Assembly (NCBI RefSeq): GCF_001187505.1
Contig: NZ_CP012150.1
Span: 3,472,001-3,536,000 of the forward strand
DNA length: 64,000 nucleotides
Direction: 5' to 3'
From: Mycolicibacterium goodii
Lineage (GTDB): Bacteria; Actinomycetota; Actinomycetes; Mycobacteriales; Mycobacteriaceae
In this document: positions 1,106-60,176 of the stretch, one piece after another
Layout: every line of letters starts with the position of its first letter
Numbering within the stretch: position 1 is the stretch's first letter
Notes under the pieces: model-generated
What the model was told of the DNA's origin: nothing
What the model saw: the letters and a program-made list of their open reading frames with translations, nothing else
The model's database searches: none
Position numbers and translations under genes: made by a program

Positions 1106-1696
1106 TCAGTGGCCGGCTTCCGGTTCGATGCCAAAGGTGTTGTAGGCCATGGCCATGAGGCCGTAGCCGCCGACGGTGAACACCAGGTCCATGCGCTGGC
1201 GGTCGTCGAGTCTCCCGCCGAGCGCGGCCCACGTCGCATCCGAGATCGTGGACTGCTCGTCGAGTTCGTCGACGGCGTCGAGGACGACCTGGTCGAACGG
1301 ATCGGCCGCCACACCGCGGCTGATGCCGTCGATATCGTCGTCGGTGAGGCCCTCGGCCTTGCCGATGAACGCGTGGTGCGCCCACTCGTACGCGCAGTTG
1401 CGCCTGCGCGCGATCCGCAGGATCGCGAGTTCACGCATGCGAGGCTCGAGCGTGGAGCGGAACAACAGGTGGTTACTGAACCGCAGGAATGCTTTCGTCA
1501 GCCCCGGATGCCGGGCCAGTGTGGACAGCGCGGTGCCCGCACCCTCGGGATTCAGCCGTTCTTCGGGGAGCATCACCGACAGCGCCCGCCGCACCTCGTC
1601 GTCCCACTCCTCGGCGGGTAAAGGGGTCAGGCGCACGTCCGGCACTCCTCCCGGTGTCCACGGCGCGGCGCGCCTGCTCTCACTGGTGAGAATCAT
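1106..1696 (-). CDS. carboxymuconolactone decarboxylase / AhpD-like protein
   Basis: A 196-residue protein of the carboxymuconolactone decarboxylase (AhpD-like) superfamily. The active-site-type segment RRNCAYEWAHHAFIG places C101 six residues before H107, which resembles the gamma-carboxymuconolactone decarboxylase pattern more than the CxxC of AhpD peroxidase-type members. I chose the ATG at 1696, which lies inside an inverted repeat that looks like an operator; no good ribosome site precedes it, so the message may be leaderless. The GTG in GGVPDVRL is an alternative start. It heads a minus-strand unit with the Rieske oxygenase and diverges from the amidohydrolase operon. Confidence 0.85.
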   Translation of the reverse strand: MILTSESRRAAPWTPGGVPDVRLTPLPAEEWDDEVRRALSVMLPEERLNPEGAGTALSTLARHPGLTKAFLRFSNHLLFRSTLEPRMRELAILRIARRRNCAYEWAHHAFIGKAEGLTDDDIDGISRGVAADPFDQVVLDAVDELDEQSTISDATWAALGGRLDDRQRMDLVFTVGGYGLMAMAYNTFGIEPEAGH

Positions 1697-1703
1697 GTTC
1701 TCA
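1687..1703. promoter_or_regulatory. regulon operator site 1 (perfect half-sites)
   Basis: TGAGAATCATGTTCTCA has two perfect 6-base arms, TGAGAA and TTCTCA, around 5 bases. It covers the ATG of the carboxymuconolactone-decarboxylase-like gene. The same motif recurs at about thirteen other places in the window, so it is probably the binding site of a dimeric repressor. Binding is inferred. Confidence 0.72.
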
Positions 1704-1797
1704 TTTCCGACTAACAGGTTTTCATCTTTTCCTCCGATGGTCAATGGCAACCCGGCATGTTCCGTCGTGACCAGGCTGAATCTGCTCGTCAGCGACA

Positions 1798-1814
1798 TCA
1801 GACATTGATTCTCG
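1798..1814. promoter_or_regulatory. regulon operator site 2 (degenerate left arm)
   Basis: TCAGACATTGATTCTCG matches the shared motif at 9 of 12 arm positions. It lies 64 bases before the amidohydrolase start and would control the plus-strand six-gene operon that diverges from operator 1. Confidence 0.5.
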
Positions 1815-1877
1815 CGTGTGGAGAAGATAGTTTCCTTGATCAGAGAACCGGGCAGCACACGGGAACGGAACACCACC

Positions 1878-3173
1878 ATGAACAAAGACGACATGATCTT
1901 GATCAGCGTGGACGACCACATCATCGAGCCGCCGGACATGTTCAGCAACCATCTGCCCGCCAAGTACCGCGACGAGGCGCCGCGCCTCGTGCACAACCCG
2001 GACGGGTCGGACACCTGGCAGTTCCGCGACACCGTGATCCCCAACGTCGCACTCAACGCCGTCGCGGGCAGGCCCAAGGAGGAATACGGCCTGGAACCCC
2101 AAGGCCTCGACGAGATCCGCAAGGGCTGCTACGACCCGAACGAGCGGGTCAAGGACATGAATGCCGGCGGCGTGCTGGCGACCATGAACTTCCCGTCGTT
2201 CCCCGGCTTCGCCGCGCGTCTGTTCGCCACCGACGACGAGGAGTTCTCACTGGCCCTGGTGCGGGCCTACAACGACTGGCACATCGACGAGTGGTGCGCC
2301 TCGAATCCGGGACGGTTCATCCCCATGGCGATCCCGGCGATCTGGAATCCCGAACTCGCCGCGGCAGAGGTGCGCAGGGTGGCGGACAAGGGCGTGCATT
2401 CACTGACGTTCACCGAGAACCCCGCGACCTTGGGCTATCCGTCGTTCCACGATCTGGAGTACTGGCGGCCGTTGTGGCAGGCCCTCGTCGACACCGAGAC
2501 CGTGATGAACGTGCACATCGGGTCGTCGGGCAAGCTCGCCATCACCGCTGCCGACGCGCCGATGGACGTGATGATCACGCTGCAGCCCATGAACATCGTG
2601 CAGGCCGCGGCGGACCTGCTGTGGTCGGCTCCGATCAAGGAGTTCCCGACGGTGAAGATCGCCCTGTCCGAGGGCGGCACCGGATGGATCCCCTACTTCC
2701 TGGACCGCGTTGACCGCACGTACGAGATGCACTCGACCTGGACGCACCAGAACTTCGGCGGCAAGCTGCCCAGCGAGGTGTTCCGCGAGCACTTCATGAC
2801 GTGCTTCATCTCCGACCCGGTCGGCGTGAAGAACCGCCACATGATCGGTATCGACAACATCTGCTGGGAGATGGACTACCCGCACAGCGACTCCATGTGG
2901 CCGGGAGCCCCCGAGGAGCTGTGGGCCGTCTTCGACACCTACGACGTGCCCGACGACGAAATCGACAAGATCACCCACGAGAACGCCATGCGGCTCTACC
3001 ACTTCGACCCGTTCGCCCACGTCCCCAGGGACCAGGCGACCGTCGGCGCGTTGCGCAAAGCCGCACAGGGCCATGACGTCTCGATCCGGGCACTGAGCAA
3101 GAAGGACAAAACCGGCGCCAGCTTCACCGACTTCCAGGCGAACGCCAAGGCCGTCTCCGGCGCACGGGACTGA
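1878..3173 (+). CDS. amidohydrolase family protein (COG2159 type)
   Basis: A 431-residue metal-dependent amidohydrolase of the ACMSD/COG2159 kind, a TIM-barrel family that includes decarboxylases and hydrolases. The N-terminal metal-binding signature is SVDDHIIEP (D12, H14) and the C-terminal aspartate sits in MDYPHSDSMWP. The ATG at 1878 was preferred over a frame extending 20 codons upstream because homologous sequence begins at MNKDDMILISVDDH; the ribosome site is weak. It is first in a plus-strand operon with acyl-CoA dehydrogenase, SDR, CoA transferase, thiolase and a second acyl-CoA dehydrogenase. Such proteins recur four times in this window, next to beta-oxidation genes. The exact reaction is unknown. 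Confidence 0.85.
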   Translation: MNKDDMILISVDDHIIEPPDMFSNHLPAKYRDEAPRLVHNPDGSDTWQFRDTVIPNVALNAVAGRPKEEYGLEPQGLDEIRKGCYDPNERVKDMNAGGVLATMNFPSFPGFAARLFATDDEEFSLALVRAYNDWHIDEWCASNPGRFIPMAIPAIWNPELAAAEVRRVADKGVHSLTFTENPATLGYPSFHDLEYWRPLWQALVDTETVMNVHIGSSGKLAITAADAPMDVMITLQPMNIVQAAADLLWSAPIKEFPTVKIALSEGGTGWIPYFLDRVDRTYEMHSTWTHQNFGGKLPSEVFREHFMTCFISDPVGVKNRHMIGIDNICWEMDYPHSDSMWPGAPEELWAVFDTYDVPDDEIDKITHENAMRLYHFDPFAHVPRDQATVGALRKAAQGHDVSIRALSKKDKTGASFTDFQANAKAVSGARD

Positions 3174-3202
3174 ACCCACGACAGAACCAGGAGCACCAAT
3201 AC

Positions 3203-4393
3203 GTGTCGGGCGGAATGAACTTCGAGCTCACCGAGGATCAGCAACTGATCCGCAGCTCCGTCGCGGAACTGGCGGCCAAGTTCGACGACCACTACTGGAT
3301 GACCAGAGACCAGGCCCACGAATTCCCACAGGAGTTCTACGACGCCATCGCGGGCGGCGGCTGGCTCGGGATGACCATTCCCGAGCAGTACGGCGGGCAC
3401 GGGCTGGGCATCACCGAGGCCACCATCTTGGCCGAAGAGGTGGCGCGCTCGGGCGGCGGCATGAACGCCGCGAGCGCGATCCACATGTCGATCTTCGGCA
3501 TGCAGCCCGTGGTGGTGTTCGGGTCCGAGCAGATGAAGGCCGAAACCCTGCCGCGGATCGTCAGTGGTGATCTGCACGTGTGCTTCGGCGTCACCGAACC
3601 CGGAGCCGGGCTCGACACGACGCGCATCACCACGTTCGCCCGCCGTGACGGCGACCATTACCTGGTCAACGGCCGCAAGGTGTGGATCTCCAAAGCCCTT
3701 GAGTCCGAGAAGATCCTGCTGCTCGCCCGGACCGAGAGCCGACAGGACGTCGAGCAGCGCGGTGGCAAGCCCACCGAAGGACTGTCGCTGTTCCTCACCG
3801 ATCTGGACCGCGACCACGTCGACATCCGGCCCATCAACAAGATGGGCCGCAACGCCGTGAGCTCCAACGAGCTGTTCATCGACGACCTTCCGGTCCCCGT
3901 CGAGCACCGGATCGGTGAGGAGGGCAAGGGATTCGGCTACATCCTGCACGGGCTCAACCCCGAGCGCATGCTGATCGCGGCCGAGGCGCTCGGCATCGGC
4001 CGGGTCGCGCTCGACCGCGCGGTGAAGTACGCCAACGAGCGCGTCGTGTTCGACCGGCCGATCGGCATGAACCAGGGAATCCAGTTCCCGCTTGCCGATT
4101 CGCTCGCGCGCCTCGATGCGGCCGAACTCGTCCTGCGCAAGGCCACCTGGCTCTACGACAACGGCAAACCGTGCGGCCGTGAGGCCAACATGGCCAAATA
4201 CCTGTGCGCCGACGCGGGATTCGCCGCGGCCGACCGTGCCCTGCAGACCCACGGCGGGATGGGCTATTCCGAGGAGTACAACATCTCCCGGTTCTTCCGG
4301 GAGTCCCGCCTGATGAAGATCGCGCCGGTGAGCCAGGAGATGATCCTGAACTTCCTCGGCGCCAACGTGCTGGGCCTGCCCAAGAGCTACTGA
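3203..4393 (+). CDS. acyl-CoA dehydrogenase (FadE type)
   Basis: FAD-dependent acyl-CoA dehydrogenase of 396 residues, full length for the family, which introduces the alpha,beta double bond into an acyl-CoA. Visible signatures are the central VTEPGAGLDTTRITT segment, the YANERVVFDRPIG motif and the C-terminal QTHGGMGYSEEYNISRFFRE. The start is GTG 3203, 10 bases after AGGAG; ATG 3215 is an alternative. It follows the amidohydrolase by 29 bases and precedes an SDR by 16, so it is cotranscribed. Substrate specificity is not readable. Confidence 0.92.
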   Translation: MSGGMNFELTEDQQLIRSSVAELAAKFDDHYWMTRDQAHEFPQEFYDAIAGGGWLGMTIPEQYGGHGLGITEATILAEEVARSGGGMNAASAIHMSIFGMQPVVVFGSEQMKAETLPRIVSGDLHVCFGVTEPGAGLDTTRITTFARRDGDHYLVNGRKVWISKALESEKILLLARTESRQDVEQRGGKPTEGLSLFLTDLDRDHVDIRPINKMGRNAVSSNELFIDDLPVPVEHRIGEEGKGFGYILHGLNPERMLIAAEALGIGRVALDRAVKYANERVVFDRPIGMNQGIQFPLADSLARLDAAELVLRKATWLYDNGKPCGREANMAKYLCADAGFAAADRALQTHGGMGYSEEYNISRFFRESRLMKIAPVSQEMILNFLGANVLGLPKSY

Positions 4394-4409
4394 GGAGTTT
4401 TGCGCTTCG

Positions 4410-5168
4410 ATGAGAACCTATTTCGACCTCACCGGACGTTCGGCGCTGGTGACCGGGGCCGGTGGCGGCATCGGCGCCGCGGTATCGGAGGCACTCGCCG
4501 CGGCGGGCGCCTCGGTGCTGGTCACCGACATCAGCGGCGACGCGGCCGATGCGGTGGCGCAGCGGATCAACACCTCGGGCGGTAAGGCCGAGGGCGCCGC
4601 GCTCGACGTCAGTGACTCCGAAGCCGCGGTGGCCGCGGCCGAACGTGCCGCCGCGCTGGGGCAGGGCACGCTGCACATCGTGGTGAACAACGCCGGGGTC
4701 ACCTCGCCCGCCATGTTCCCCAAGCTCACCGACGAGACGTTCCGGTTGACCTTCGACATCCACGTCATGGGCACATTCCACGTCACCCAGTCCGCGCTGC
4801 CGCACCTGGCCACCGACGGCACGGGCCGCGTCATCAACGTCACCTCGTCGGCCGGCATCACCGGCACGCTGGGCCAGGTCAACTACTCGGCGGCCAAGGC
4901 AGGCATCATCGGGTTCACCAAGTCGCTGGCGCGGGAACTCGCGCCCAAGAACATCATGGTCAACGCGTTGGCGCCGCTGGCCGCGACACCGATGACCGAG
5001 ACCATCCGGACCAACGAGAAGTTCGCGGCCAACATGATGAACCGCATCCCGCTCAAACGCTGGGCGGACGCCGATGAGGTGGCAGGGGCGTTCGTGTTCC
5101 TGGCGTCGGATGCCGCGTCGTACATCACCGGCCAGGTACTGCCGGTCGACGGCGGCATGGTTATGTGA
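4410..5168 (+). CDS. short-chain dehydrogenase/reductase (FabG-like)
   Basis: A 252-residue classical SDR, NAD(P)-dependent. The cofactor loop is TGAGGGIG near residue 14, followed by NNAG, a catalytic serine in NVTSSAGITG, and YSAAK with the catalytic Tyr and Lys; it ends with the usual ITGQVLPVDGG. It probably acts as a 3-hydroxyacyl-CoA dehydrogenase or related alcohol dehydrogenase, given its place between acyl-CoA dehydrogenase and CoA transferase/thiolase genes. Its stop overlaps the next start (GTGA), pointing to translational coupling. Confidence 0.9.
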   Translation: MRTYFDLTGRSALVTGAGGGIGAAVSEALAAAGASVLVTDISGDAADAVAQRINTSGGKAEGAALDVSDSEAAVAAAERAAALGQGTLHIVVNNAGVTSPAMFPKLTDETFRLTFDIHVMGTFHVTQSALPHLATDGTGRVINVTSSAGITGTLGQVNYSAAKAGIIGFTKSLARELAPKNIMVNALAPLAATPMTETIRTNEKFAANMMNRIPLKRWADADEVAGAFVFLASDAASYITGQVLPVDGGMVM

Positions 5169-6409
5169 CGGGTATGCCGAAGGACAATCCGAAAGCCTCG
5201 GGGCCACTTGCCGGGATCACGGTCGTCGCGCTCGAGCAGGCGGTGTCGGCGCCCATGTGCACCCGCGTGCTCGCCGATTTCGGCGCCCGCGTGATCAAGG
5301 TGGAGAACCCGAACGGCGGGGACTTCGCGCGCGATTACGACGACGTGGTCCTCGGGCCGGGGGGGCTTGCCGCGCACTTTGTCTGGGCCAACCGCGGCAA
5401 GGAGTCCATCGCGCTGGACCTCAAGACACCCGGCGGGATCGACGTGCTGCACCGGCTGCTGGACCGGGCCGACGCGCTGGTGTCCAACCTGGCCCCCGGC
5501 GCGACGGCCCGCATGGGTCTGGCGCCGGCGGACCTGGCCGAGCGGCATCCGCAGGTCATCCCGGTCGAGATCGACGGGTACGGCAGCGGGGGACCGCTGT
5601 CGCACAAGCGGGCCTACGACCTGCTGGTGCAGGCCGAATCGGGTGCGTGCGCGGTCACCGGGCATCCGGGCCTGCCCGCCAAGCCCGGGCCACCCGTCGC
5701 CGACATCTCCACGGGCCTCTACGCCGCGCTGTCGGTCATGGCGCTGTTCATCGGGCGGCTGCGGCAGCCCGGCGGGGCGGCACCGTCGGTCGCGGTCAGC
5801 CTGTTCGACACCATGATCGACATCATGGGATACCCGCTGACCTACACCCAGCACTCGGGCGTCGACCAGGAGCCGCTGGGCATGAGCTCGCCCGCGGTGG
5901 CACCGTACGGCGCGTTCGACACGCGTGACGGTCAGACCGTCGTGCTCGGCACGACCAACGACCGGGAGTGGCAGCGGCTCGCCCGCGAGATCATCGGGCG
6001 CCCCGACCTCGCCGACGATCCGCGGTTCGCCGGCAACTCCGACCGCTGCGCGCACCGCGAGGTGCTCGACGACGCCATCCGAACCTGGTGTGCGCAACAC
6101 GATCTCGCCACGATCCAGCAGATCGCCGACGAGGCAGGCATCGGCAACTCGCGGTTCAACCGGCCCAGCGAGGTGCTCGCGCACCAGCATCTCAAGGACC
6201 GCGACCGCTGGCGGCAGGTCGCCACCCCCAAAGGCGAGATCGCCGCACTGCTGCCGCCGCCGGTGATCTCGGGTTACGAGATGCCGATGGGTGCGGTGCC
6301 CGGCCTTGGCGAGCACACTGATCACATTCTGCGCGACATCGGTCTGTCCGCCGAGGACATCGCGGCACTGCGTGAGCAGGGTGCGATCGGCCCGACGAGC
6401 CAGATCTGA
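5165..6409 (+). CDS. CaiB/BaiF family class III CoA transferase
   Basis: A 414-residue class III CoA transferase or CoA-dependent racemase-like enzyme that moves CoA between carboxylic acids. Typical features are GITVVALEQAVSAPMCTRVLADFGARVIKVE at the N terminus and ANRGKESIALDLKTP; the usual catalytic Asp region follows around VADISTGLYA. The start is GTG 5165 in a 4-base overlap with the SDR stop; ATG 5174 is an alternative. It probably activates an intermediate of the pathway encoded by this operon. Confidence 0.9.
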   Translation: MTGMPKDNPKASGPLAGITVVALEQAVSAPMCTRVLADFGARVIKVENPNGGDFARDYDDVVLGPGGLAAHFVWANRGKESIALDLKTPGGIDVLHRLLDRADALVSNLAPGATARMGLAPADLAERHPQVIPVEIDGYGSGGPLSHKRAYDLLVQAESGACAVTGHPGLPAKPGPPVADISTGLYAALSVMALFIGRLRQPGGAAPSVAVSLFDTMIDIMGYPLTYTQHSGVDQEPLGMSSPAVAPYGAFDTRDGQTVVLGTTNDREWQRLAREIIGRPDLADDPRFAGNSDRCAHREVLDDAIRTWCAQHDLATIQQIADEAGIGNSRFNRPSEVLAHQHLKDRDRWRQVATPKGEIAALLPPPVISGYEMPMGAVPGLGEHTDHILRDIGLSAEDIAALREQGAIGPTSQI

Positions 6410-6454
6410 CAGAACCGAACACCAGACGAGATCGAACGAGATCGGAGCAGTCCC

Positions 6455-7603
6455 ATGCGTGAAGCCGTCATCGTCGAAGCCGTGCGCACCCCCGTCGGTA
6501 AGCGCAACGGTGGCCTGTCCGGCATGCATGCCGCCGATCTGTCGGGCCTGGTGCTCAACGCGCTCGTGGAGAAGGCGAACATCAGCCCCGACATTGTCGA
6601 CGACGTCATCTGGGGCTGCGTCTCGCAGGTCGGCGACCAGTCCAGCAACATCGGCCGGTTCGCGGTGCTGGCCGCCGGGTGGCCCGAGCACATTCCGGGA
6701 ACCACGGTCAACCGGGCCTGCGGATCCAGCCAGCAGGCGCTCGATTTCGCGGTGCAGGCCGTGATGTCCGGTCAGCAGGACGTCGTGGTCGCAGGCGGCG
6801 TCGAGGTGATGAGCCGGGTACCGCTCGGTGCCGCCCGCGCCACCGGAATGCCGTACGGGCCCGCAGTGCTCGATCGGTACCGCGACTTCTCGTTCAACCA
6901 GGGCATCTCGGCCGAGATGATCGCGCAGAAGTGGGGCTTCTCCCGCAGCCGGCTCGACGAGTACTCGGTGGCGTCGCACGAACGCGCCGCGGCCGCCCAG
7001 GACAGCGGCGCGTTCGAGACCCAGATGATCACGGTGTTCCCCGACGACGGTGATCCGGTCGTCGCGGACGAGGGGGTGCGCCGCGGGACCACGGTCGACA
7101 AGCTCGCCAACCTCAAACCGGCGTTCAAAGCCGACGGCGTGATCCACGCGGGCAACTCCTCGCAGATCTCCGACGGTGCCGCCGCACTTCTCGTGATGAC
7201 CGCGGAAAACGCTGTCACTATGGGTCTTTCACCCATCGTGCGGTACCGGGCGGGCGCCGTCGCGGGCGCCGACCCGGTGCTGATGCTCACCGCACCTATC
7301 CCGGCCACCGAGAAGGTCCTGCGCAAGGCCGGAATCCGGCTCGACGAGATCGGCGTCTTCGAGGTCAACGAGGCGTTCGCGCCCGTGCCGTTGGCCTGGC
7401 AGGCCGAGACCGGTGCCGATCCGGCCAAGCTCAACCCGCTGGGCGGCGCGATCGCCCTGGGCCACCCGCTCGGCGCCTCCGGTGCGGTGCTGATGACCCG
7501 CATGATCAACCACATGCGCGACAACGGGATTCAGTACGGACTGCAGACCATGTGTGAGGGCGGCGGCACCGCCAACGCCACCATCGTGGAACTTCTCGCC
7601 TAG
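6455..7603 (+). CDS. acetyl-CoA acyltransferase (thiolase, FadA type)
   Basis: A 382-residue thiolase with a complete active site: nucleophile C89 in NRACGSSQQA, the histidine in GHPLGASG and the C-terminal cysteine in MCEGGGTANA. It should perform the last, thiolytic step of beta-oxidation. A GGAG stands seven bases before the ATG. It is the fifth gene of the operon, 45 bases after the CoA transferase and 13 before a second acyl-CoA dehydrogenase. Unlike the two thiolase-like proteins elsewhere in the window, it keeps all catalytic residues. Confidence 0.93.
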   Translation: MREAVIVEAVRTPVGKRNGGLSGMHAADLSGLVLNALVEKANISPDIVDDVIWGCVSQVGDQSSNIGRFAVLAAGWPEHIPGTTVNRACGSSQQALDFAVQAVMSGQQDVVVAGGVEVMSRVPLGAARATGMPYGPAVLDRYRDFSFNQGISAEMIAQKWGFSRSRLDEYSVASHERAAAAQDSGAFETQMITVFPDDGDPVVADEGVRRGTTVDKLANLKPAFKADGVIHAGNSSQISDGAAALLVMTAENAVTMGLSPIVRYRAGAVAGADPVLMLTAPIPATEKVLRKAGIRLDEIGVFEVNEAFAPVPLAWQAETGADPAKLNPLGGAIALGHPLGASGAVLMTRMINHMRDNGIQYGLQTMCEGGGTANATIVELLA

Positions 7604-7616
7604 AAGGGGCAGGCGC

Positions 7617-8777
7617 ATGCAGCGGAATCTGTTCACCGAGGACCACGAGGCATTCCGCGCGCTGGCGCGGGATTTCATCGAGAAGGAGGTGGTCGGCGCC
7701 TATTCCGAATGGGAGAAGGCGGGCCGCATGCCGCGCGACGTGTTCAAGCAGATGGGCGAACTCGGCATGCTCGGTATGGCGATCCCCGAAGAGTACGGCG
7801 GCGCAGGCATTCCCGACTACCGCTACAACGTCGTGCTGCAGGAGGAAGCGGCCAGGGCCATGGTGACCCTGTCGACGGTGCGCACGCAGCTCGAGGTGAT
7901 CCTGCCGTACTTCCTGCACTACGCCGACGAAGAACAGCGTCGGCGGTGGTTCCCCGGTCTGGCGGACGGCACGCTGCTCACCGCGATCGCGATGACCGAG
8001 CCGGGCACCGGATCGGATCTCGCCGGGGTGCGCACCACCGCGGTGCGCGCCACTGATTCGCAGGGCGACCACTACATCCTCAACGGCGCAAAGACGTTCA
8101 TCACCGGCGGTATCCAGGCCGATCTGGTCGTCGTGGTGGCCCGCACGTCGACCGATCCGCAGAACCGCCGCAAGGGCCTGACGCTGCTGGTGGTCGAGGA
8201 CGGCATGGCGGGCTTCACCCGCGGCCGCGAGCTGGAGAAGATGGGCTGCAAGGTGCAGGACACCGCGGAGCTGTCGTTCGTCGACGTGCGGGTGCCGGTG
8301 GCCAACGTGCTGGGGGAGGAGGGCGAGGCCTTCAGCTACCTCGGCCACAACCTCGCCCAGGAGCGCCTCACGGTCGCGGTCGGCTCGGTGGCGCAGGCCC
8401 GCTCGGCGATCGACGCCGCGATCGATTACACGAAGAACCGCAAGATATTCGGAGCGTCCGTCGCATCTTTTCAAAACACCAAGTTCGAGCTGGCGGCCTG
8501 CTCGGCGGAGGTCGAGGCCGCGCAGGCCATGCTCGACCGCGCGGTGGCGTTGCACATCGACGGTGAGCTCTCGGGGGCCGACGCGGCGCGCGTGAAACTG
8601 TTCTGCACGGAGATGCAGGCGCGGGTGGTCGATCGTTGCCTGCAGCTCTTCGGCGGGTATGGCTACATGATGGAGTACCCCATCGCCCGGCTGTACACCG
8701 ATGCCCGTGTCGCGCGCATCTATGCCGGTACCAGCGAGGTCATGAAGGTCATCATCGCCAAGTCGCTGGGGCTGTAG
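7617..8777 (+). CDS. acyl-CoA dehydrogenase (FadE type)
   Basis: A 386-residue FAD-dependent acyl-CoA dehydrogenase. It has MTEPGTGSDLAGVRTTAVR in the middle domain, YTKNRKIFGASVASFQNTKF in the flavin-binding C-terminal domain and the ending LFGGYGYMMEYPIARLYTDARVARIYAGTSEVMK. The ATG at 7617 is preceded by AAGGGGC. It is last in the plus-strand operon that starts at 1878. It differs from the 3203 enzyme, so the two probably act on different intermediates. Confidence 0.93.
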   Translation: MQRNLFTEDHEAFRALARDFIEKEVVGAYSEWEKAGRMPRDVFKQMGELGMLGMAIPEEYGGAGIPDYRYNVVLQEEAARAMVTLSTVRTQLEVILPYFLHYADEEQRRRWFPGLADGTLLTAIAMTEPGTGSDLAGVRTTAVRATDSQGDHYILNGAKTFITGGIQADLVVVVARTSTDPQNRRKGLTLLVVEDGMAGFTRGRELEKMGCKVQDTAELSFVDVRVPVANVLGEEGEAFSYLGHNLAQERLTVAVGSVAQARSAIDAAIDYTKNRKIFGASVASFQNTKFELAACSAEVEAAQAMLDRAVALHIDGELSGADAARVKLFCTEMQARVVDRCLQLFGGYGYMMEYPIARLYTDARVARIYAGTSEVMKVIIAKSLGL

Positions 8778-15520: not shown

Positions 15521-15537
15521 TGAGAGTCCCATTCTCA
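15521..15537. promoter_or_regulatory. regulon operator site 3
   Basis: TGAGAGTCCCATTCTCA matches the shared motif at 11 of 12 arm positions and lies 23 bases before the P450 start. It would control the P450, ferredoxin, DUF1330 and luciferase-like genes. Confidence 0.68.
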
Positions 15538-16841: not shown

Positions 16842-17035
16842 TGCGGGTCAGGGTCGACGAGGACCGCTGTGCCGGCCACGGCATGTGCCTGACACTGTGC
16901 CCCGAGGTCTTCGAGATGTCAGACGACGGCTGGGCGGTGGCCGATCCGGGTGAGCTGCCCGCCGGACTCGAAGGCGCCGCCCATCAGGCGATCCAGAACT
17001 GCCCGGAACGAGCGATCATCGAGATCACCGATTAG
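16841..17035 (+). CDS. [3Fe-4S] ferredoxin
   Basis: A 64-residue P450-type ferredoxin. Cluster residues are C10 and C16 in CAGHGMC, with a histidine at the position that in 4Fe-4S proteins is cysteine, and C54 in NCPERAI. A further cysteine, C20, follows in LTLCPEVF. It starts on the last base of the preceding P450 stop and is its obvious electron donor. Confidence 0.93.
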   Translation: MRVRVDEDRCAGHGMCLTLCPEVFEMSDDGWAVADPGELPAGLEGAAHQAIQNCPERAIIEITD

Positions 17036-17050
17036 AGAAAGAGATTCGCA

Positions 17051-36089: not shown

Positions 36090-36106
36090 TGAGAACCGTA
36101 CTCTCG
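36090..36106. promoter_or_regulatory. regulon operator site 7
   Basis: TGAGAACCGTACTCTCG matches the shared motif at 10 of 12 arm positions and lies 66 bases upstream of the SDR start in the 263-base divergent region. Confidence 0.58.
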
Positions 36107-36244: not shown

Positions 36245-36261
36245 TGAGAATGAAATTTCCA
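36245..36261. promoter_or_regulatory. regulon operator site 8
   Basis: TGAGAATGAAATTTCCA has one perfect arm and 10 of 12 matches. It is about 27 bases upstream of the aldehyde dehydrogenase start, and because the CoA transferase and yrbE/mce genes follow on the same strand it may control the importer too. A related repeat, GCGAAT-5-ATTCGC, lies just upstream near 36218. Confidence 0.58.
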
Positions 36262-37769: not shown

Positions 37770-37794
37770 GCGCGAACAGGAAAGGGCAGCACCG

Positions 37795-39003: not shown

Positions 39004-39294
39004 ATCCGATGCACGACACGTTCGGAACCGCCCTGTCCTGCCGGGATGCCAAGGGCGCGCAAACATCAACCATCGGAGTGGGTTCTGCCGAATTCGCCCT
39101 CGCGGCACTCACCGCTTCCGATACGATCGGCGCCTTGGTTGCGGACGAGCTCACGGGCCCGTCAGACGGTCACTTCCGTTGCAGATCAGCGCAATCGGCG
39201 TGCGCCAGGAGATCGTCCCAACGGCGTACACGCACGGAATCGACGAATTGACTGACGCGTCAACACCGAACCGACCTGGAGGGACCACAAGCGA
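39004..39294. other. intergenic region upstream of the mce operon
   Basis: 291 bases between the CoA transferase stop and yrbEA. I see no supported gene; an 80-codon frame at 39009-39251 is low-complexity and lacks family features. No full copy of the shared TGAGAA/TTCTCA motif was found. TGACGCGTCA at 39253-39262 is a perfect 10-base palindrome within TTGAC-6-GTCAA (39248-39263) and could be a regulatory or promoter element. Confidence 0.5.
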
Positions 39295-40092: not shown

Positions 40093-40100
40093 GCGCGCCG

Positions 40101-40958: not shown

Positions 40959-40967
40959 GAGCAGGAG

Positions 40968-47212: not shown

Positions 47213-48943
47213 ATGCTCACCCGATTCGTACGCACCCAGCTGATCATCTTCACGATCGCATCGATCGTGGGTGTGGCGGTGATGCTGTTCGCCTACATGC
47301 AGGTCCCAACCTTGGTGGGGCTCGGCCGTATCACCGTGAAGCTGGAATTGCCTGCGACAGGCGGGCTGTACCAGTTCGGCAACGTCACCTATCGCGGATC
47401 CCAGATCGGCAAGGTCACCGATGTGCGGCTGACCGGGACGGGCGCGGAGGCCACCTTGTCGCTGGACCGGTCACCCAAGGTTCCCGCCGATCTGCAGGCG
47501 CAGGTGCGCAGCATGTCGGCGGTGGGGGAGCAGTACGTAGAGCTGTTGCCGCGCACGGACTCCGGGCCCTACCTGGAGAACGGTTCGGTGATCCCCAAGT
47601 CGCAGACCAGCATTCCGCAAGCGGTCGGGCCGATGCTCGATCAGCTCAGCGCGCTGGTGGACACGATCCCCAAGGACAAGTTGAGCCAGCTGCTCGACGA
47701 GTCGTACAACGCGTTCAACGGCACCGGATTCGACTTCGGTTCGCTGCTGGATTCGGCGTCGACGATCACCGAGGACGCCAACGGGGTGTCCGATCAGACC
47801 CGCACCTTGATCGAGGACTCCGGACCGTTCCTCGACGCGCAGGCCCAGACCGCGGATTCGATCCGCACCTGGGCGGCGAGTCTGGCGGGCATCACGCAGA
47901 CGGTGGCCGACGACGATGCGCAGATCCGTACCGTCCTGCGGGACGGTCCCGGTTTCGAGCAGGAGACGTCGCGCCTGCTGGAGGGGCTCAAGCCCACACT
48001 TCCGGTGCTGTTGGCCAACCTGACCACCATCGGGCAGATCGCGGTGACCTACAACCCCTCGATCGAGCAGTTGCTGGTGTTGTTGCCGCCGTATGTCGCA
48101 CAGATCCAGACATATGCGCCGACGAACAACCCCACCGGTCTGCCCAACGGTGATTTCTCGCTGGGGCTCGGGGATCCGCCCGCCTGCACGGTGGGCTTCC
48201 TGCCGCCGTCGGCATGGCGGTCGCCTGCGGACACCTCCGATGCCGATACCCCGGACAACATCTACTGCAAGCTGCCGCAGGACTCCCCGATCGGGGTGCG
48301 CGGTGCCCGCAACTATCCGTGTATGGGACATCCCGGTAAACGGGCACCCACCGTCGAGTTGTGCAACGATCCCAATGGCTATCAACCTTTGGCCCAGCGC
48401 CAGCACACACTGGGTCCTTACCCGTTGGATCCCAACTTGATCGCGCAGGGAATCGCGCCGGATTCGCGGGTTCGCCCGGACGACAACATCTTCGGTCCGC
48501 TGCAGGGCACGCCGCTGCCACCCGGTGTGACAGCGCCGCCTGCAGGGCCGCCGCCGGCCCCGCAGCCGCCGCCGAACTTCGCAGGCACCGGACCGGGGCC
48601 GTTGCTGCCGGGCCAGCCGATCTTTCTCGACCCGCCGGTACCGGGGCAGCCGCCCGCACCCGTACGCAATCCCGAGGCGGTCCCGTTGCCGCCCGCACAA
48701 CTGCCGCAGGTGACCGAAGTGCCCGTGCCGCACGGCGTTACGCCACCGCCGCCGGCCACCGACGGGGGTGCCCCGGTGGCTGCGCCCAGTGCGTTCAACG
48801 GTGCGAAGCCGTCCGGGCCTGCGGTGACGGTCGCCAAATACAATCCGCGCAACGGTGAGTACATGGGTGCCGATGGCAAACTATATCGCCAGGCGAACCT
48901 GGTGGGCGGCGCCAAGTCATGGCAGGACCTGATGCCGAGCTGA
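47213..48943 (+). CDS. mceF: MceF
   Basis: A 576-residue Mce protein, the longest of the six. Anchor (TQLIIFTIASIVGVAVMLFAYMQ), MCE domain (LPATGGLYQFGNVTYRGSQIGKVTDV), helical region, then a long proline-rich tail from about residue 435 and a terminal AKYNPRNGEYMGADGKLYRQANLVG segment. ATG 47213 directly follows the mceE stop. Last gene of the importer operon. Confidence 0.96.
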   Translation: MLTRFVRTQLIIFTIASIVGVAVMLFAYMQVPTLVGLGRITVKLELPATGGLYQFGNVTYRGSQIGKVTDVRLTGTGAEATLSLDRSPKVPADLQAQVRSMSAVGEQYVELLPRTDSGPYLENGSVIPKSQTSIPQAVGPMLDQLSALVDTIPKDKLSQLLDESYNAFNGTGFDFGSLLDSASTITEDANGVSDQTRTLIEDSGPFLDAQAQTADSIRTWAASLAGITQTVADDDAQIRTVLRDGPGFEQETSRLLEGLKPTLPVLLANLTTIGQIAVTYNPSIEQLLVLLPPYVAQIQTYAPTNNPTGLPNGDFSLGLGDPPACTVGFLPPSAWRSPADTSDADTPDNIYCKLPQDSPIGVRGARNYPCMGHPGKRAPTVELCNDPNGYQPLAQRQHTLGPYPLDPNLIAQGIAPDSRVRPDDNIFGPLQGTPLPPGVTAPPAGPPPAPQPPPNFAGTGPGPLLPGQPIFLDPPVPGQPPAPVRNPEAVPLPPAQLPQVTEVPVPHGVTPPPPATDGGAPVAAPSAFNGAKPSGPAVTVAKYNPRNGEYMGADGKLYRQANLVGGAKSWQDLMPS

Positions 48944-49498: not shown

Positions 49499-49515
49499 CG
49501 GTAGTGGCATTCTCA
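49499..49515. promoter_or_regulatory. regulon operator site 9
   Basis: CGGTAGTGGCATTCTCA has a perfect right arm. The degenerate left side CGGTA-TGGCA is shared, but for one base, with the site at 55684, which supports it as real. It lies 18 bases upstream of the secreted protein start at 49480. A mirror-image copy begins at 49520 (GGAGAATAACAGTGTCG) for the divergent gene. Confidence 0.55.
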
Positions 49516-49626
49516 ACGAGGAGAATAACAGTGTCGACCAGGCCGGTCACGGGCCTGGCGCGGATTCGCCGAGTTCGCCGTCGGCACTTGAGCAATCTTC
49601 TCGGAAATGGAGAATTCCGTTACCGG

Positions 49627-52463: not shown

Positions 52464-52566
52464 TGGCGGTAGAGTCGTGGTCAAGATCACGCGTCGCCGC
52501 GACGTTAGGATTCGGTGGGCATCGCGGGCGACGTGACGTGCGGCTTTTCGGGAGAGGGGTGCGGAT

Positions 52567-54860: not shown

Positions 54861-54877
54861 CGGAAATGTGATTCTCG
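54861..54877. promoter_or_regulatory. regulon operator site 10
   Basis: CGGAAATGTGATTCTCG, with one good arm and 8 of 12 matches; on the minus strand CGAGAATCACATTTCCG resembles the 24098 and 60160 sites (GAGAATCACnTT). It is 16 bases upstream of the DUF35 gene. Confidence 0.48.
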
Positions 54878-54949
54878 TCTAGAGAGAACCGTCTGTCTGG
54901 GAATTTGGGTGAGCTAGCGCGGTGACAGGTAAGCCCACCCGCGGAAAGC

Positions 54950-55683: not shown

Positions 55684-55700
55684 CGGTATTGGCATTCTCT
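55684..55700. promoter_or_regulatory. regulon operator site 11
   Basis: CGGTATTGGCATTCTCT, nearly the same as the 49499 site (CGGTAGTGGCATTCTCA). It faces the enoyl-CoA hydratase gene 18 bases away. One arm matches the consensus well, the other poorly; support comes from the duplication. Confidence 0.48.
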
Positions 55701-55705
55701 TCGGC

Positions 55706-55722
55706 TGAGAATAGCATCACCG
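55706..55722. promoter_or_regulatory. regulon operator site 12
   Basis: TGAGAATAGCATCACCG, a mirror image of site 11 with its perfect arm on the left. It ends two bases before the acyl-CoA ligase start. Sites 11 and 12 form a back-to-back pair in a divergent promoter. Confidence 0.5.
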
Positions 55723-55724: not shown

Positions 55725-57302
55725 GTGCGCGACATCCCCGTTGAGCTGACCGAACGCTATGTCGGGGAAGGGTGGTGGACCTCGCAGACACTGGGCCAGA
55801 TGCTGGCCGAAGGACTCGCGGCCAGCCCGGACGCCGGGTTCTGCGTCCACTCCGATGTGCGCCCCTACGCAGGCACCTTCGGCGCGGTCGAGACGCTCGC
55901 GCGCCGGCTCGCCGCGGGCCTGCACGCGCGCGGGGTGGGCCAGGGGGATGTGATCGCGTTCCAGTTGCCGAACTGGATGGAGGCCGCGGTCGCGTTCTGG
56001 GCCTCGTCCTTCCTCGGCGCGGTGACCGTACCGATCGTGCACTTCTACGGCCGCAAGGAACTCCGCCACATCCTGTCCACCGCGCAGCCCAAGGTGTTCC
56101 TGACCACAGAGCGCTTCGGGCGCATGAGTTTTCAGCCCGACCTGTGCGCGCGGGTGCCGATCGTGGGTCTGGTCGGTGAGTCGTCGTTCACCGATCTGCT
56201 CGCGGAGCGGCCGATGTCCGGGACGCTGGACGCCGACCCGGCCGGTCCCGCGCTGATCGCGTTCACCTCGGGTACGACCCGAGACCCCAAGGGCGTCATC
56301 CACAGTCATCAGACGCTGAGCTGTGAGACCCGTCAGCTCCTGGCGAACTACCCACCCGACCGCGGCCGCCAGCTGACCGCGACCCCGGTCGGGCATTTCA
56401 TCGGCATGGTGGGCGCGTTACTCATCCCGGTGCTGGAAGGATCGCCCATCGACCTGTGCGACGTGTGGGATCCCGCCAGGGTCCTGCGGCTGATGGAAAC
56501 CGACGGCCTGTCGATCGGTGGTGGCCCACCGTATTTCGTCACCAGCCTGCTGGATCATCCCGACTTCGACGAGCGGCACCTGGCCCGCATCACGACCGTC
56601 GGCCTCGGCGGGTCCACGGTGCCTGCGGCGGTCACGCGCCGTCTCGCCGACCTGGGTATCTTCGTGTTCCGCTCCTACGGCAGCACCGAGCATCCGTCGA
56701 TCACGGGATCATCGCCGACGGCGCCGGAGGATAAGAGGCTCTACACCGACGGCAATCCGCGTCCGGGTGTGGAGATCCGCCTCGGCCCCGATGGTGAGAT
56801 CTTCAGCCGCGGCCCGGACCTGTGCCTCGGGTACACCGACGATGCGTTGACCGCCAAGGCTTTTGACGCCGACGGTTGGTACCGCACCGGCGATGTGGGA
56901 TACCTCGACGACGACGGATACCTCACGATCACCGACCGCACGGCCGACCTGATCATCCGCGGCGGTGAGAACATCAGCGCGCTCGAGGTCGAGGAGGTGC
57001 TGCTCGGGATCCCCGAGGTGATCGAGGCCATCGTGGTGGCCGCCCCGGATGCGCGCCTGGGCGAGCGGGTCGCGGCGGTGCTGCGGACCCGCAGTGGTTC
57101 TGCCATACCGACGCTGCAGGACGTGCGGGCACACTTCGAGCGGGTCGGGGTGGCGCGCCAGAAGTGGCCGGAGGAACTGCACCACGTCCCGGACGGTCAG
57201 GACTTCCCGCGCACCGCGAGCGGGAAGGTGCAGAAATACCGCGTTCGCCAGGCCGTCCAGAATCCGGCGGCGGTGATGGACATTGCGACATCCGCAAATT
57301 GA
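55725..57302 (+). CDS. acyl-CoA ligase (FadD type, AMP-forming)
   Basis: A 525-residue ANL-superfamily adenylating enzyme. The P-loop is FTSGTTRDPKG, the A5-like motif RSYGSTEHPSITGS, then YRTGDVGYLDDDGYL, and the catalytic lysine region is RTASGKVQKYRVR. It activates a carboxylic acid to its CoA thioester. GTG 55725 is taken as start; there is no ribosome site, the operator ends just before it, and the transcript may be leaderless. Its stop codon overlaps operator 13. Confidence 0.9.
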   Translation: MRDIPVELTERYVGEGWWTSQTLGQMLAEGLAASPDAGFCVHSDVRPYAGTFGAVETLARRLAAGLHARGVGQGDVIAFQLPNWMEAAVAFWASSFLGAVTVPIVHFYGRKELRHILSTAQPKVFLTTERFGRMSFQPDLCARVPIVGLVGESSFTDLLAERPMSGTLDADPAGPALIAFTSGTTRDPKGVIHSHQTLSCETRQLLANYPPDRGRQLTATPVGHFIGMVGALLIPVLEGSPIDLCDVWDPARVLRLMETDGLSIGGGPPYFVTSLLDHPDFDERHLARITTVGLGGSTVPAAVTRRLADLGIFVFRSYGSTEHPSITGSSPTAPEDKRLYTDGNPRPGVEIRLGPDGEIFSRGPDLCLGYTDDALTAKAFDADGWYRTGDVGYLDDDGYLTITDRTADLIIRGGENISALEVEEVLLGIPEVIEAIVVAAPDARLGERVAAVLRTRSGSAIPTLQDVRAHFERVGVARQKWPEELHHVPDGQDFPRTASGKVQKYRVRQAVQNPAAVMDIATSAN

Positions 57303-57316
57303 GAATATGATTCTCG
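57300..57316. promoter_or_regulatory. regulon operator site 13
   Basis: TGAGAATATGATTCTCG matches the shared motif at 11 of 12 arm positions. It begins in the stop codon of the acyl-CoA ligase and lies 21 bases before the amidohydrolase start, so the amidohydrolase and second ligase have their own promoter. Confidence 0.7.
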
Positions 57317-57337
57317 CGATAGGAAAAGGAGTGTTCC

Positions 57338-58528
57338 ATGGGGCAACTGTCGCATCGAGTCGACATACCGTTTCCGCTGTTCGACGCGGACAACCACCTG
57401 TACGAGCCGCCGGAGGCGATGACCAAGTACCTGCCCAAGGAGTACCGGGACGTCGTCCAATACGTCGAGGTCAACGGTCGCACCAAGATCGCGATCAAGG
57501 GACAGATCAGCAACTACATTCCCAATCCGACGTTTTCGGTGGTCGCCAAACCGGGCGCGTGGGAGGAGTACTTCAAGTTCGGCAACCCCGACGGCAAGAG
57601 CAAGCGCGAGTTGTTCGGTGAGCCGATGCGGTCGATCCCGGCGTTCTTCGAGCCGGCACCTCGCCTTGAGCTGATGGACCAACTGGGCGTCGACCGCTCG
57701 CTGATGTTCCCGACGCTGGCGAGTCTCATCGAGGAGCGGTTGCGAGACGACCCGGTCGCCATCCACGTCATCATCCACTCGCTGAACCAGTGGCTCGACG
57801 AGGTCTGGGGCTTCAACTACCAGAACCGCATCTTCACCACCCCGGTGATCACGCTGCCGATCGTCGAGAAGGCGATCGAGGAGTTGGAGTGGGCGGTCAA
57901 GCGCGGCGCCCGTGCCATCCTGATCCGCCCGGCGCCGGTGCCCGGATTCCGCGGCCCCCGGTCGTTCGCGCTGCCCGAGTTCGACCCGTTCTGGGAGCGG
58001 GTCGTGGAGTACGACCTCTTCGTCGGCATGCACTCCTCCGACAGCGGCTACTCCCGCTACACCTCGGAATGGGACGGCGCCGCGCAGGAGATGCTGCCGT
58101 TCCAGACCAACGCGATGTCGATCCTCAACGAGTGGCGCCCGATTCAGGACGCGGTGGCGTCGTGGGTGATCCACGGCGCACTGTTCCGGCACCCGAAGCT
58201 GAAGGTGGGCATCGTCGAGGCCGGATCGAAGTGGATGTTCCCGCTGCTGGACTCCATGGCCGAGGTGTACAAGAAGACGCCGGAGAGCTTCCCGGCCAAC
58301 CCGGTCGAGGAGATCAAGAACCGCATCTACGTCAGCCCGTTCTACGAGGAGGGCATCGACGACCTGATCAACCTGATCGGCGTGGACCAGGTGCTCTACG
58401 GCTCCGACTGGCCGCATCCCGAGGGCCTGGCCGAGCCGACGCACTACGTGACCGCGCTCGAACACCTGTCCGTCGAGGATCAGGCCAAGATCATGGGCGG
58501 CAACCTGGGTCGTCTCGTGACGGTGTGA
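57338..58528 (+). CDS. amidohydrolase family protein (COG2159 type)
   Basis: A 396-residue amidohydrolase-2 family TIM barrel. DADNHLYEP at residues 17-25 is the metal motif; further histidines lie in GMHSSDSGYSR and the terminal motif is GSDWPHPEG. AAAGGAG precedes the ATG. It is cotranscribed with the acyl-CoA ligase that overlaps its stop by 4 bases (GTGA), which suggests it acts on an acid or acyl-CoA close to the start of the pathway. Confidence 0.89.
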   Translation: MGQLSHRVDIPFPLFDADNHLYEPPEAMTKYLPKEYRDVVQYVEVNGRTKIAIKGQISNYIPNPTFSVVAKPGAWEEYFKFGNPDGKSKRELFGEPMRSIPAFFEPAPRLELMDQLGVDRSLMFPTLASLIEERLRDDPVAIHVIIHSLNQWLDEVWGFNYQNRIFTTPVITLPIVEKAIEELEWAVKRGARAILIRPAPVPGFRGPRSFALPEFDPFWERVVEYDLFVGMHSSDSGYSRYTSEWDGAAQEMLPFQTNAMSILNEWRPIQDAVASWVIHGALFRHPKLKVGIVEAGSKWMFPLLDSMAEVYKKTPESFPANPVEEIKNRIYVSPFYEEGIDDLINLIGVDQVLYGSDWPHPEGLAEPTHYVTALEHLSVEDQAKIMGGNLGRLVTV

Positions 58529-60066
58529 CCCACCAAGTCACCTGGCAGACCATCCCCGAGATGGTCGGCAGCGCAGCGGATCGATTCGGCGACGCCGAAG
58601 CCGTCGTCGACTATGGCGACAATCCGGTCGGAGTCGACTATGGCGACAATCCGGTCGGAGTCGACGGTCCGCTGCGCCTCACTTTCATCGAACTCGCCGA
58701 CCGTGTGCGCCGCGCCGCGGGCGCTTTCACAGAGCACGGGATCGGGCGAGGGGACCGGGTCGCGATCTGGGCCCCCAACTCCGCCGAATGGGTGATCGCG
58801 GCATTCGGCGCACTCACCGCGGGCGGCGTGCTGGTGCCGGTCAACACCCGCTTCAGGGCCGAGGAAGCCGCCGACATCATCCGGCGCAGCGGAGCGAAAG
58901 TCGTTCTGCGTCAACAAGGATTCCTGGGGCAGGACTTCGAGGTGCCTGCCGAGGTGCCCGCGATCGAGATCAAATCGGACTTCCTGACCAGCGGTGAGCC
59001 GACCGAGGCAGGCGGCCTGCACGGTACCGACATCGCCGACATCATCTACACCTCGGGAACCACCGGACGCCCCAAGGGCGTCATGATGAACCATCTGCAG
59101 ACGTTGCGGCTGTACGCCGAATGGTGCGACCTCGCAGATCTGCGCGAGGGTGACCGCTACCTGATCGTCAACCCCTTCTTCCACACGTTCGGCTATAAAG
59201 CCGGCTGCATCGCGAGCCTCATCCGGGGCGCCACCATGCTGCCGGTCCCGGTGTTCGACATCGATGCCGTCGTCGATCTCGTTGCGGCGGAACGGGTCAC
59301 GATGTTGCCGGGACCGCCGACGCTGTACCACTCGCTGTTGGCGGTGCCGGACAAGAGCAAGCTGGCGACGCTGCGCGCCGGGGTGACCGGTGCGGCCGAC
59401 ATCCCCGTCGAACTCATCCGCCGCGTCCACGAGGAGTTGCCGTTCAAGACCGTGGCCACCGGCTACGGGCTGACCGAGGCGGGCACCGCCACGCTGTCGC
59501 GGCCGGGGGACTCCTTCACCGACATCGCCACCACCGTCGGCAAGGCGTGCGACGGGGTCGAGGTCCGCGTCGCCGACGACGGCGAGGTCCTGATTCGCGG
59601 CTACAGCGTCATGCAGGGCTACCTCGACGATCCGGCCGCCACCGCGGAGGCGATCGACGAGCACGGTTGGCTGCACACGGGTGACCTCGGCACGCTCGAC
59701 GACAACGGCCGGTTGCGCATCGTCGGCCGTAAGAAGGACATGTTCATCGTCGGCGGCTTCAACGCCTATCCGGCCGAGATCGAGGGGTTCCTCCTCGAAC
59801 ACCCCGACATCGCGCAGGTCGCGGTGATCGGTGTCGACGACGAACGCATGGGGCAGGTCGGCAAGGCCTTCGTGGTGCTGAAGGATCCACCGGATGGGAC
59901 CCGGCAGCGCGTCACGGCCGAAAATCTGATTGCCTGGAGCCGTGAGCGCATGGCCGGATATAAGGTGCCCCGGTATGTGGAGTTTCTCGACGAACTACCC
60001 CTCAATGCCACGGGCAAGGTTATGAAAGACCACCTGAAGGCGCGTGAGGCGCTCGGCGAACGCTGA
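58525..60066 (+). CDS. acyl-CoA ligase (FadD type, AMP-forming)
   Basis: A 513-residue ANL-superfamily ligase: YTSGTTGRPKG P-loop, GYGLTEAGTATLS, LHTGDLGTLDDNGRLRIVGRKKDMFIVGGFNAYPAEIE, and the lysine in LPLNATGKVMKDHL. The N terminus contains a perfect 27-base tandem duplication (58606-58659) encoding VDYGDNPVG twice. GTG 58525 overlaps the amidohydrolase stop. Substrate unknown; it is distinct from the ligase at 55725. Confidence 0.93.
   Translation: MTHQVTWQTIPEMVGSAADRFGDAEAVVDYGDNPVGVDYGDNPVGVDGPLRLTFIELADRVRRAAGAFTEHGIGRGDRVAIWAPNSAEWVIAAFGALTAGGVLVPVNTRFRAEEAADIIRRSGAKVVLRQQGFLGQDFEVPAEVPAIEIKSDFLTSGEPTEAGGLHGTDIADIIYTSGTTGRPKGVMMNHLQTLRLYAEWCDLADLREGDRYLIVNPFFHTFGYKAGCIASLIRGATMLPVPVFDIDAVVDLVAAERVTMLPGPPTLYHSLLAVPDKSKLATLRAGVTGAADIPVELIRRVHEELPFKTVATGYGLTEAGTATLSRPGDSFTDIATTVGKACDGVEVRVADDGEVLIRGYSVMQGYLDDPAATAEAIDEHGWLHTGDLGTLDDNGRLRIVGRKKDMFIVGGFNAYPAEIEGFLLEHPDIAQVAVIGVDDERMGQVGKAFVVLKDPPDGTRQRVTAENLIAWSRERMAGYKVPRYVEFLDELPLNATGKVMKDHLKAREALGER
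58606..58659 (+). repeat. 27-base tandem duplication in acyl-CoA ligase
   Basis: Two identical 27-base units (58606-58632 and 58633-58659), each encoding VDYGDNPVG, followed by a partial third. The frame is kept. It looks like a recent slippage or duplication within a surface loop near residues 28-45. Confidence 0.9.
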
Positions 60067-60159
60067 GCATACGCACAGCACGTAAATACCATTTCCGCAG
60101 TAAAAACGGCATATCGAAGCCGTTGGCTACTGATGTAGGGTCGGTGCGCTGTCAAAAAC

Positions 60160-60176
60160 TGATAACGTGATTCTCA
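60160..60176. promoter_or_regulatory. regulon operator site 14
   Basis: TGATAACGTGATTCTCA matches the shared motif at 11 of 12 arm positions and is nearly identical to site 4. It lies 34 bases upstream of the first Mce-associated gene, in a 143-base intergenic region. Confidence 0.68.

Follow-up and report, generated by a model that had tools for sequence, protein, structure and literature searches.

Which regulator owns a palindrome that recurs at promoter after promoter in a region of catabolic genes in Mycolicibacterium goodii? The question arises from a 64,000-nucleotide stretch of contig NZ_CP012150.1 (genome positions 3472001-3536000 of 7,105,933 bases; hereafter the window). A preliminary description, made from the sequence alone, had listed fourteen promoter sites of the form TGAGAA-N5-TTCTCA, had seen in them a single regulon and had proposed the three TetR proteins of the window as candidate regulators. 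Our analysis partly confirms the observation and partly supports the interpretation: the palindromic motif is genuine and, judged from sequence, its most likely owner is not one of the three window TetRs but g76, a TetR gene 6.6 kilobases (kb) to the left of the window. Coordinates up to 64,000 refer to the window and larger ones to the genome.

Form and clustering of the putative operator

Alignment of the strong sites gave a sharper motif, GAGAAT-N3-ATTCTC, with a centre of three bases rather than five. Since the outer T/A is variable, this 15-mer core was preferred to the 17-mer TGAGAA-N5-TTCTCA. Genome-wide, seven perfect and four one-mismatch copies of the core are found among the matches listed, and 11 of 11 fall within 3.407-3.682 Mb, 3.9% of the genome; the same interval holds 9 of the 28 two-mismatch places among the matches listed. 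The 17-mer, with at most one mismatch, occurs at 10 places, nine of them in 3.41-3.68 Mb and the tenth at 6403899. Weak matches mean little alone: with up to three mismatches the window contains 17 matches to the 17-mer against 8.9 expected (standard deviation 3.4), a count reached by one shuffle in 100, and thus it is the strong sites that carry the signal. Three-mismatch matches genome-wide (800, against 172 for the reversed pattern) are likewise not informative alone.

A position matrix was built from the 11 core sites, of which four lie in the window (1687, 15521, 29980 and 57300), so that their own scores are circular. It was applied to a 340 kb region (3.38-3.72 Mb; 290 genes called with a simple codon model; 88% coding). 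Eighteen of the 19 matches above 15 bits proved intergenic, and none of 300 column-permuted matrices (mean 0.6 matches, maximum 9) gave as many as the true matrix at any of the four thresholds applied. Site centres mostly stand 29-80 base pairs (bp) before a start codon, those farther off including 29857, 54861, 3464456 and the korA site considered below.

The fourteen coordinates listed earlier all hold the sequences described, with the 17-mer perfect at 1687 and 29980 and carrying one mismatch at 15521, 57300 and 60160, and all fourteen are intergenic in our gene calls. Nine score above 15 bits, including five outside the training set (29857, 36090, 36245, 54861 and 60160). The remaining five are weaker, at 6.9-11.0 bits (24098 and 49499, 11.0; 1798, 8.0; 55684, 7.5; 55706, 6.9): 49499, 55684 and 55706 are halves of paired sites, and 1798 and 24098 find no backing in the matrix or in the close relative G077. 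Placement within about 80 bases of a start codon, as originally proposed, holds for most sites and fails for 29857 (164/174 bp) and 54861 (120 bp to the g139 start). To the list can be added 17034 (16.9 bits) and 49520 (17.0 bits), and the regulon extends past the window on both sides. The claim that one operator joins genes for mce-type import, coenzyme A (CoA) activation, P450/Rieske/FadE oxidation and thiolases is well supported.

The TetR gene g76 as probable owner, and its rivals

Gene g76 occupies 3464674-3465402, outside the window, and hence could not have been seen in the preliminary description. It matches PF00440 (TetR_N) at 3465100-3465237 with 33.8 bits, above the cut-off, and its promoter holds the top-scoring site, TGAGAATAATATTCTCA, at 3465458-3465474 (35.1 bits). 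The 340 kb region has 10 places with a TetR domain. Upstream DNA was scored for nine of these, giving 35.1 bits for g76, 25.6 for g98 and at most 1.3 for the rest; the tenth, at 3439472 and outside the gene calls, has no site above 9 bits nearby. Two of the window TetRs, g92 (8894) and g137 (52567), are rejected as owners, with best upstream sites of 0.5 and -2.2 bits.

A scan of public genomes yielded 388 relatives of g76, from which the best 80 were kept (85-94% identity; the best from Mycolicibacterium wolinskyi). In 80 of these best 80 of 388 loci a perfect palindrome lies about 130 bp (129-142) before the aligned start, with none for the reversed-pattern control. Neither arm varies among 29 non-redundant loci; the outer flank mostly carries 0-0.8 bits, and the inner side is well conserved, with TACAAT and an invariant ATG that, 66 bp before the first-called start of g76, is likely the true start. 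The DNA-binding region is invariant among 20 aligned orthologs.

Across 148 genomes of the genus, the perfect core is present in 122, mostly in 4-8 copies each (the reversed pattern occurs once, in one genome), and an ortholog of g76 is also present in 122. Both are found in 120 genomes and neither in 24; two have the TetR only (G056 and G089) and two the motif only (G044 and G070, one copy each). G056, scored as motif-free, carries the one-mismatch site GAGAATAGCGTTCTC before its TetR. By comparison of lists, the only TetR-bearing genomes without the regulon gene g142 are G008 (70% complete), G026, G056, G063 and G089. Sampling of the order found a g76 match in 40 of 298 genomes and 4 of 76 genera. 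In other genera of the family the palindrome lies upstream of 5/5 g76 orthologs (74-76% identity) and 3/3 paralogs (56-58%); a 34% homolog from another family has no palindrome upstream.

Two pairs of genomes merit separate mention. In G063 and G089 (L193, L192) a TetR ortholog of 86-88% identity is accompanied by 0-1 motif copies and by no g142 ortholog at the cut-off used; judged from these genomes, the regulon seems to have been lost while the regulator stays. G016 and G073 (L197-L200) each possess two copies of g76, one preceded by GAGAATATCATTCTC and the other by GAGAAGATGCTTCTC or GAGAAGTTGCTTCTC. The DNA-binding regions of the two copies are near-identical (DGK to NGK, DRS to ERS), and perhaps the copies represent a split in specificity.

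The palindrome could in principle belong to a regulator other than the local TetRs, such as the IclR-type g39 or a global factor, with g76 merely one of its targets. Indeed, g39 too has a site at its divergent promoter, and co-occurrence alone cannot separate a regulator from a target. However, g76 relatives in other genera, even paralogs of about 57%, keep the upstream palindrome (only g76 was followed there). Inverted repeats of such size are, moreover, typical of TetR dimers, which we counted against a non-TetR owner, and we regard this reading as improbable.

It is very unlikely that the window TetR g98 (14703), divergent from the P450 gene g99, owns the operator. The intergenic region common to both genes does contain a 25.6-bit site, 266 bp upstream of the called start of g98, and G077 has a site there too. 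Nevertheless, this site stands 32 bp before g99 and is better placed for that gene, and a g98 ortholog, found in only 56 of the 148 genomes against 122 for the motif, is too rare. The earlier choice of candidate regulators was mistaken or incomplete.

We give hardly any credence to the view that the ATTCTC half is a promoter element and that the palindrome reflects divergent promoters: ATTCTC often stands about 25-45 bp before a start codon, several centres resemble a -10 box and CGGT-N6-ATTCTC elements have only the ATTCTC half in common with the palindrome, but conservation extends to both halves even at sites that serve a single gene (g142, korA), the g76 promoter has a separate conserved TACAAT downstream of its palindrome, and all copies with 0-1 mismatch, among the matches listed, lie in one region.

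Sites, genes and conservation in relatives

The sites and principal gene runs of the window, with their counterparts in four relatives (G077, G034, G082 and G016), are as follows.

1687..1703, no strand: operator at the divergent promoters of g85 (CMD family, minus) and g86 (amidohydrolase, plus); 29.4 bits, training site; at the orthologous promoter in G077, G034, G082 and G016.
1878..8777, plus: g86-g91, encoding an amidohydrolase, acyl-CoA dehydrogenase, SDR, CaiB, thiolase and acyl-CoA dehydrogenase.
15521..15537, plus: operator 32 bp before the P450 gene g99, also upstream of the TetR gene g98 (minus); 25.6 bits, training site; before g99 orthologs in G034, G082, G016 and G077 (22.5 bits).
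17034..17050, plus: weak, doubtful operator-like site just before g101; 16.9 bits; none above 12 bits at the G077 counterpart.
24098..24114, minus: doubtful site upstream of the thiolase-like g108; 11.0 bits; none above 12 bits in G077.
29857..29873, no strand: second operator between g114 and g115, separated from the main site by 123 bp; 15.2 bits, non-training; a second site in the same position in G077, G034 and G016; has its own 22-bp partner.
29980..29996, plus: operator 41 bp before the acyl-CoA dehydrogenase pair g115/g116; 31.7 bits, training site; conserved in G077, G034, G082 and G016.
36090..36106, minus: operator before g121 (SDR) and the next minus-strand genes g120-g118; 18.8 bits, non-training; same promoter in G034 (15.3), G016 (22.6) and G077 (13.9).
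36245..36261, plus: operator 38 bp before g122-g131; 20.5 bits, non-training; identical 21 bases in G034 and G077 (20.5); 22-bp partner.
36291..48943, plus: g122-g131, a run of aldehyde dehydrogenase, CaiB, YrbE-type permease and then open reading frames; g125-g131 are named Mce from their position and from the preliminary description.
49499..49536, no strand: paired half-degenerate operators near g132/g133, inner halves ATTCTC-N6-GAGAAT; a similar pair in G077.
54861..54898, no strand: paired half-degenerate operators upstream of g139 (minus); first half 16.7 bits, non-training; gap-7 pair with the partner about 22 bp on; counterpart in G077 (12.1 bits).
55684..55722, no strand: paired half-degenerate operators between enoyl-CoA hydratase g140 (minus) and acyl-CoA ligase g141 (plus); contains CGGTATTGGCATTCTC.
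57300..57316, plus: operator 30 bp before g142 and g143; 28.9 bits, training site; conserved in G077, G034, G082 and G016.
57338..60066, plus: g142-g143, amidohydrolase and AMP-binding acyl-CoA ligase; g142 in 117 of the 148 genomes.
60160..60176, plus: operator before g144/g145, which have no Pfam match at E 1e-5; 19.7 bits, non-training; same core before g144 in G077 (19.7); in G034 a comparable site lies 2.8 kb beyond g142 (L210, 20.8).

Conservation was followed in two ways. Within the four relatives, 45 places carry the motif with 0-1 mismatch, and 35 of them precede regulon-gene orthologs, at the promoters of g29/g30, g36/g37, g39/g40, g75, g76/g77, g84-g87, g99, g114/g115, g121/g122, g142 and g260, not each in all four. 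In addition, 120 kb of G077, a stretch not chosen by the pattern, was scanned by the matrix at a threshold of 12 bits. Of 16 matches, one falls inside a gene (g25) and 15 are intergenic at the same promoters as in M. goodii: g29/g30, g36/g37, g39/g40, g64, g75, g76/g77, g85/g86, g98/g99, g114/g115 (two), g121/g122 (two), g139, g142 and g144. The window sites at 1687, 15521, 29857, 29980, 36090, 36245, 54861, 57300 and 60160 thus have G077 counterparts above 12 bits; 1798, 17034 and 24098 do not.

The products encoded beside the sites include oxygenases (a P450 and a Rieske protein), amidohydrolases, an aldehyde dehydrogenase, paired acyl-CoA dehydrogenases, acyl-CoA ligases, CaiB transferases, thiolases and the YrbE-type permease of the mce run. 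NCBIfam scores of these proteins are mostly below the curated cut-offs, so the functions named are putative. A further perfect core at 3681507-3681523, about 150 kb from the nearest other site, stands 281 bp before g260/g261, whose products match 2-oxoacid:ferredoxin oxidoreductase families and which we take to be KorAB (2-oxoglutarate:ferredoxin oxidoreductase). G077, G034 and G082 retain this site, at a distance of 223-277 bp.

Many sites are accompanied by a second, poorer copy in a fixed register. The best secondary site is 21 or 22 bp off at 7 of 16 sites here and at 19 of 42 in the relatives, against 51 of 1000 random intergenic points. In the pairs 49499/49520, 54861 with its partner and 55684/55706 the inner halves are good and the outer halves poor. 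Pairs of the form ATTCTC-N6/7-GAGAAY number three in the 340 kb, and no other gap from 0 to 13 occurs, for which reason we read the element CGGTATTGGCATTCTC as half of a paired operator. It is the left member of the 55684/55706 pair and is unchanged before g141 here and in G077, G034 and G082; before g25 it is unchanged here and in G034 and G082, with one change in G077. Its copies with 0-1 mismatch lie inside the cluster in 4/4 cases here and in 3/4 in G034, where the fourth is far off at 964496. No clear partner accompanies either copy before g25, and it is possible that CGGTATTGGCATTCTC belongs to a second, independent regulator.

Proposed mechanism and comparison with known systems

Direct observation covers the sites, how they cluster, where they lie and how they are conserved, as well as the pairing at two turns and the joint occurrence of motif and g76. 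As an explanation, we propose that a single TetR repressor, g76, would bind GAGAAT-N3-ATTCTC and control its own gene together with a catabolic regulon spread over about 275 kb, comprising import, CoA activation, P450/Rieske oxidation, acyl-CoA dehydrogenation, thiolysis and korAB. Dimers would bind the palindrome at or near the promoter, and at many promoters the poorer copy 21-22 bp away, two helical turns, would let a second dimer bind alongside. A pathway intermediate, probably an acyl-CoA thioester, would then release the repressor. Binding, repression rather than activation, cooperativity and the effector are the steps that we infer; the explanation as a whole we hold to be highly probable.

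By analogy, the mechanism is likely repression of the KstR2 kind, as the placement of sites close to starts, at divergent promoters and before the gene of the regulator itself agrees with a TetR repressor that a pathway product releases. Among solved structures, g76 comes nearest, by sequence and by fold, to FadR-type acyl-CoA regulators, some of which were determined together with acyl-CoA ligands, and this suggests a CoA thioester as effector. The likeness to these acyl-CoA responsive TetR regulators is distant: about 20% identity, with E about 1e-7 by sequence and 4e-4 by fold.

Several observations weigh against this reading. G063 and G089 keep the TetR without a site above 12 bits upstream, and in G026 the site reaches only 13.7 bits. 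As the genomes are related, a Fisher value for the co-occurrence of motif and g76 is not a true probability. The flanks at g76 loci are not uniformly variable, the inner side and an outer block from -156 to -150 being conserved. Ten of the 45 places in the relatives either precede no regulon ortholog or have nothing closer than a distant paralog after them (as at 3873000 in G034, before a g31-like gene of 63%). At eight promoters compared, the arms are identical at 294 of 300 positions and the flanks at 775 of 1400, an arm identity partly built in because the sites in relatives were found by pattern. The p values for the 21-22 bp pairing (2.7e-6 here, 3e-15 in the relatives) are guides only: the register was first noticed in this same genome, which makes its test here post hoc, and the sites in the relatives are orthologous. 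The distance between the korAB site and the start is 223-281 bp, and a search of G016 that allowed 0-1 mismatch did not recover the site. Finally, the structure model of g76 is weak, with a mean pLDDT (predicted local distance difference test score) of 71.6 and low values around the DNA-binding helices.

The unusual parts of the regulon are the two-turn pairing and the korAB link. A more speculative and rather doubtful proposal is that this is a third large mycobacterial regulon for polycyclic-lipid catabolism beside those of KstR and KstR2, directed at a terpenoid-like substrate with a quaternary carbon. Such a regulon would jointly deploy a mutase, KstD-like flavoproteins, P450s, Rieske oxygenases and a dedicated Mce importer, under a repressor acting as two dimers two turns apart and also switching on korAB. 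The mutase would be the adenosylcobalamin mutase nearest to 2-hydroxyisobutyryl-CoA mutase, and 2-oxoglutarate oxidation by KorAB would supply reduced ferredoxin to the oxygenases.

Since 122 of the 148 genomes sampled possess g76, a single repressor, not named in the literature covered, appears to control a major catabolic programme in most of these mycobacteria. The operator offers a direct handle, for a compound that releases the repressor should point to the substrate of the mce-type importer, the P450s and the Rieske oxygenases. The site before korAB suggests a link from central carbon metabolism to the electron supply of oxygenases, and a large co-regulated gene set is now open to direct testing.

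The catabolic targets of KstR and KstR2 are the same enzyme classes as those of the g76 regulon, and both resemble the proposed system in that a TetR repressor acts through a palindromic site of its own and promoters are arranged divergently. KstR is rejected as owner: g76 scores 20.0 bits on the KstR equivalog model (cut-off 280), and a separate KstR is encoded at 2262395 (340.8 bits). The KstR motif, from which the palindrome also differs, has three loose matches in the 340 kb, none at an operator. KstR2 is likewise rejected, on its motif. That motif is given as AnCAAGnnCTTGnT, and the sites of regulated genes are placed at 22-82 bp from the start, whereas for a start that is not regulated the distance is 285 bp (PMC3068626). 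The g76 operator differs from this motif, of which the 340 kb holds 0 exact copies, and the earlier statement that the palindrome is not that of KstR2 stands. KstR2 is not among the six PDB sequence matches of g76 at E 1e-5; it appears among general fold matches, as 4w1u, at rank 20 with the weak model.

A second comparison is motif X of Mycobacterium sp. VKM Ac-1817D, described as a computed palindrome whose TetR owner is the Rv0767c ortholog, with a regulon of 14 operons containing P450s, dehydrogenases and SDRs, most induced on phytosterol (PMC6593523). On that description it resembles the g76 regulon in palindrome, TetR owner and type of operon, and the string GAGAA does not appear in the main text of that paper. 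Motif X was set apart by its owner's promoter, not by motif letters: the divergent pair of a TetR gene and an Rv0768-type aldehyde dehydrogenase gene (2443612), from which orthology was judged, has a best score of 1.9 bits, and the two systems are regarded as probably distinct.

Other sources, in the portions covered, comprise predicted TetR motifs given as logos (PMC4482099) and a cholesterol transcriptome of M. smegmatis with several KstD genes and mce clusters and no mention of the g76 operator (PMC4881515), which the covered text of PMC7593942 and PMC6678751 does not mention either. No published account of the operator or regulon was found in open-licence PMC text, logos and supplements aside, and literature on triterpenoids, hopanoids and korA gave nothing on this regulon.

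Some smaller features complete the picture of the region. Genes g25-g28 (3403142-3407160), considered together with g37, include those for two subunits of a mutase, the large and the B12-binding one, for which 2-hydroxyisobutyryl-CoA mutase is the nearest PDB entry; genes for a luciferase-like monooxygenase and CaiB come next. A MeaB-type chaperone is encoded nearby, and two CGGTATTGGCATTCTC-type elements precede g25. Genes g38 and g42 (3415559-3423262) encode two FAD_binding_2 proteins, g42 being nearest to the 3-oxosteroid 1-dehydrogenase 7p18. A second KstR-like reading frame at 3443547-3444074 reaches 163 bits, below the cut-off of 280, in a place where gene calls score poorly. In the window, an imperfect inverted repeat, GCTGAGCA-CT-TGCTTAGC, at 52445-52465 stands about 112 bp before the TetR gene g137 and is perhaps that gene's own operator.

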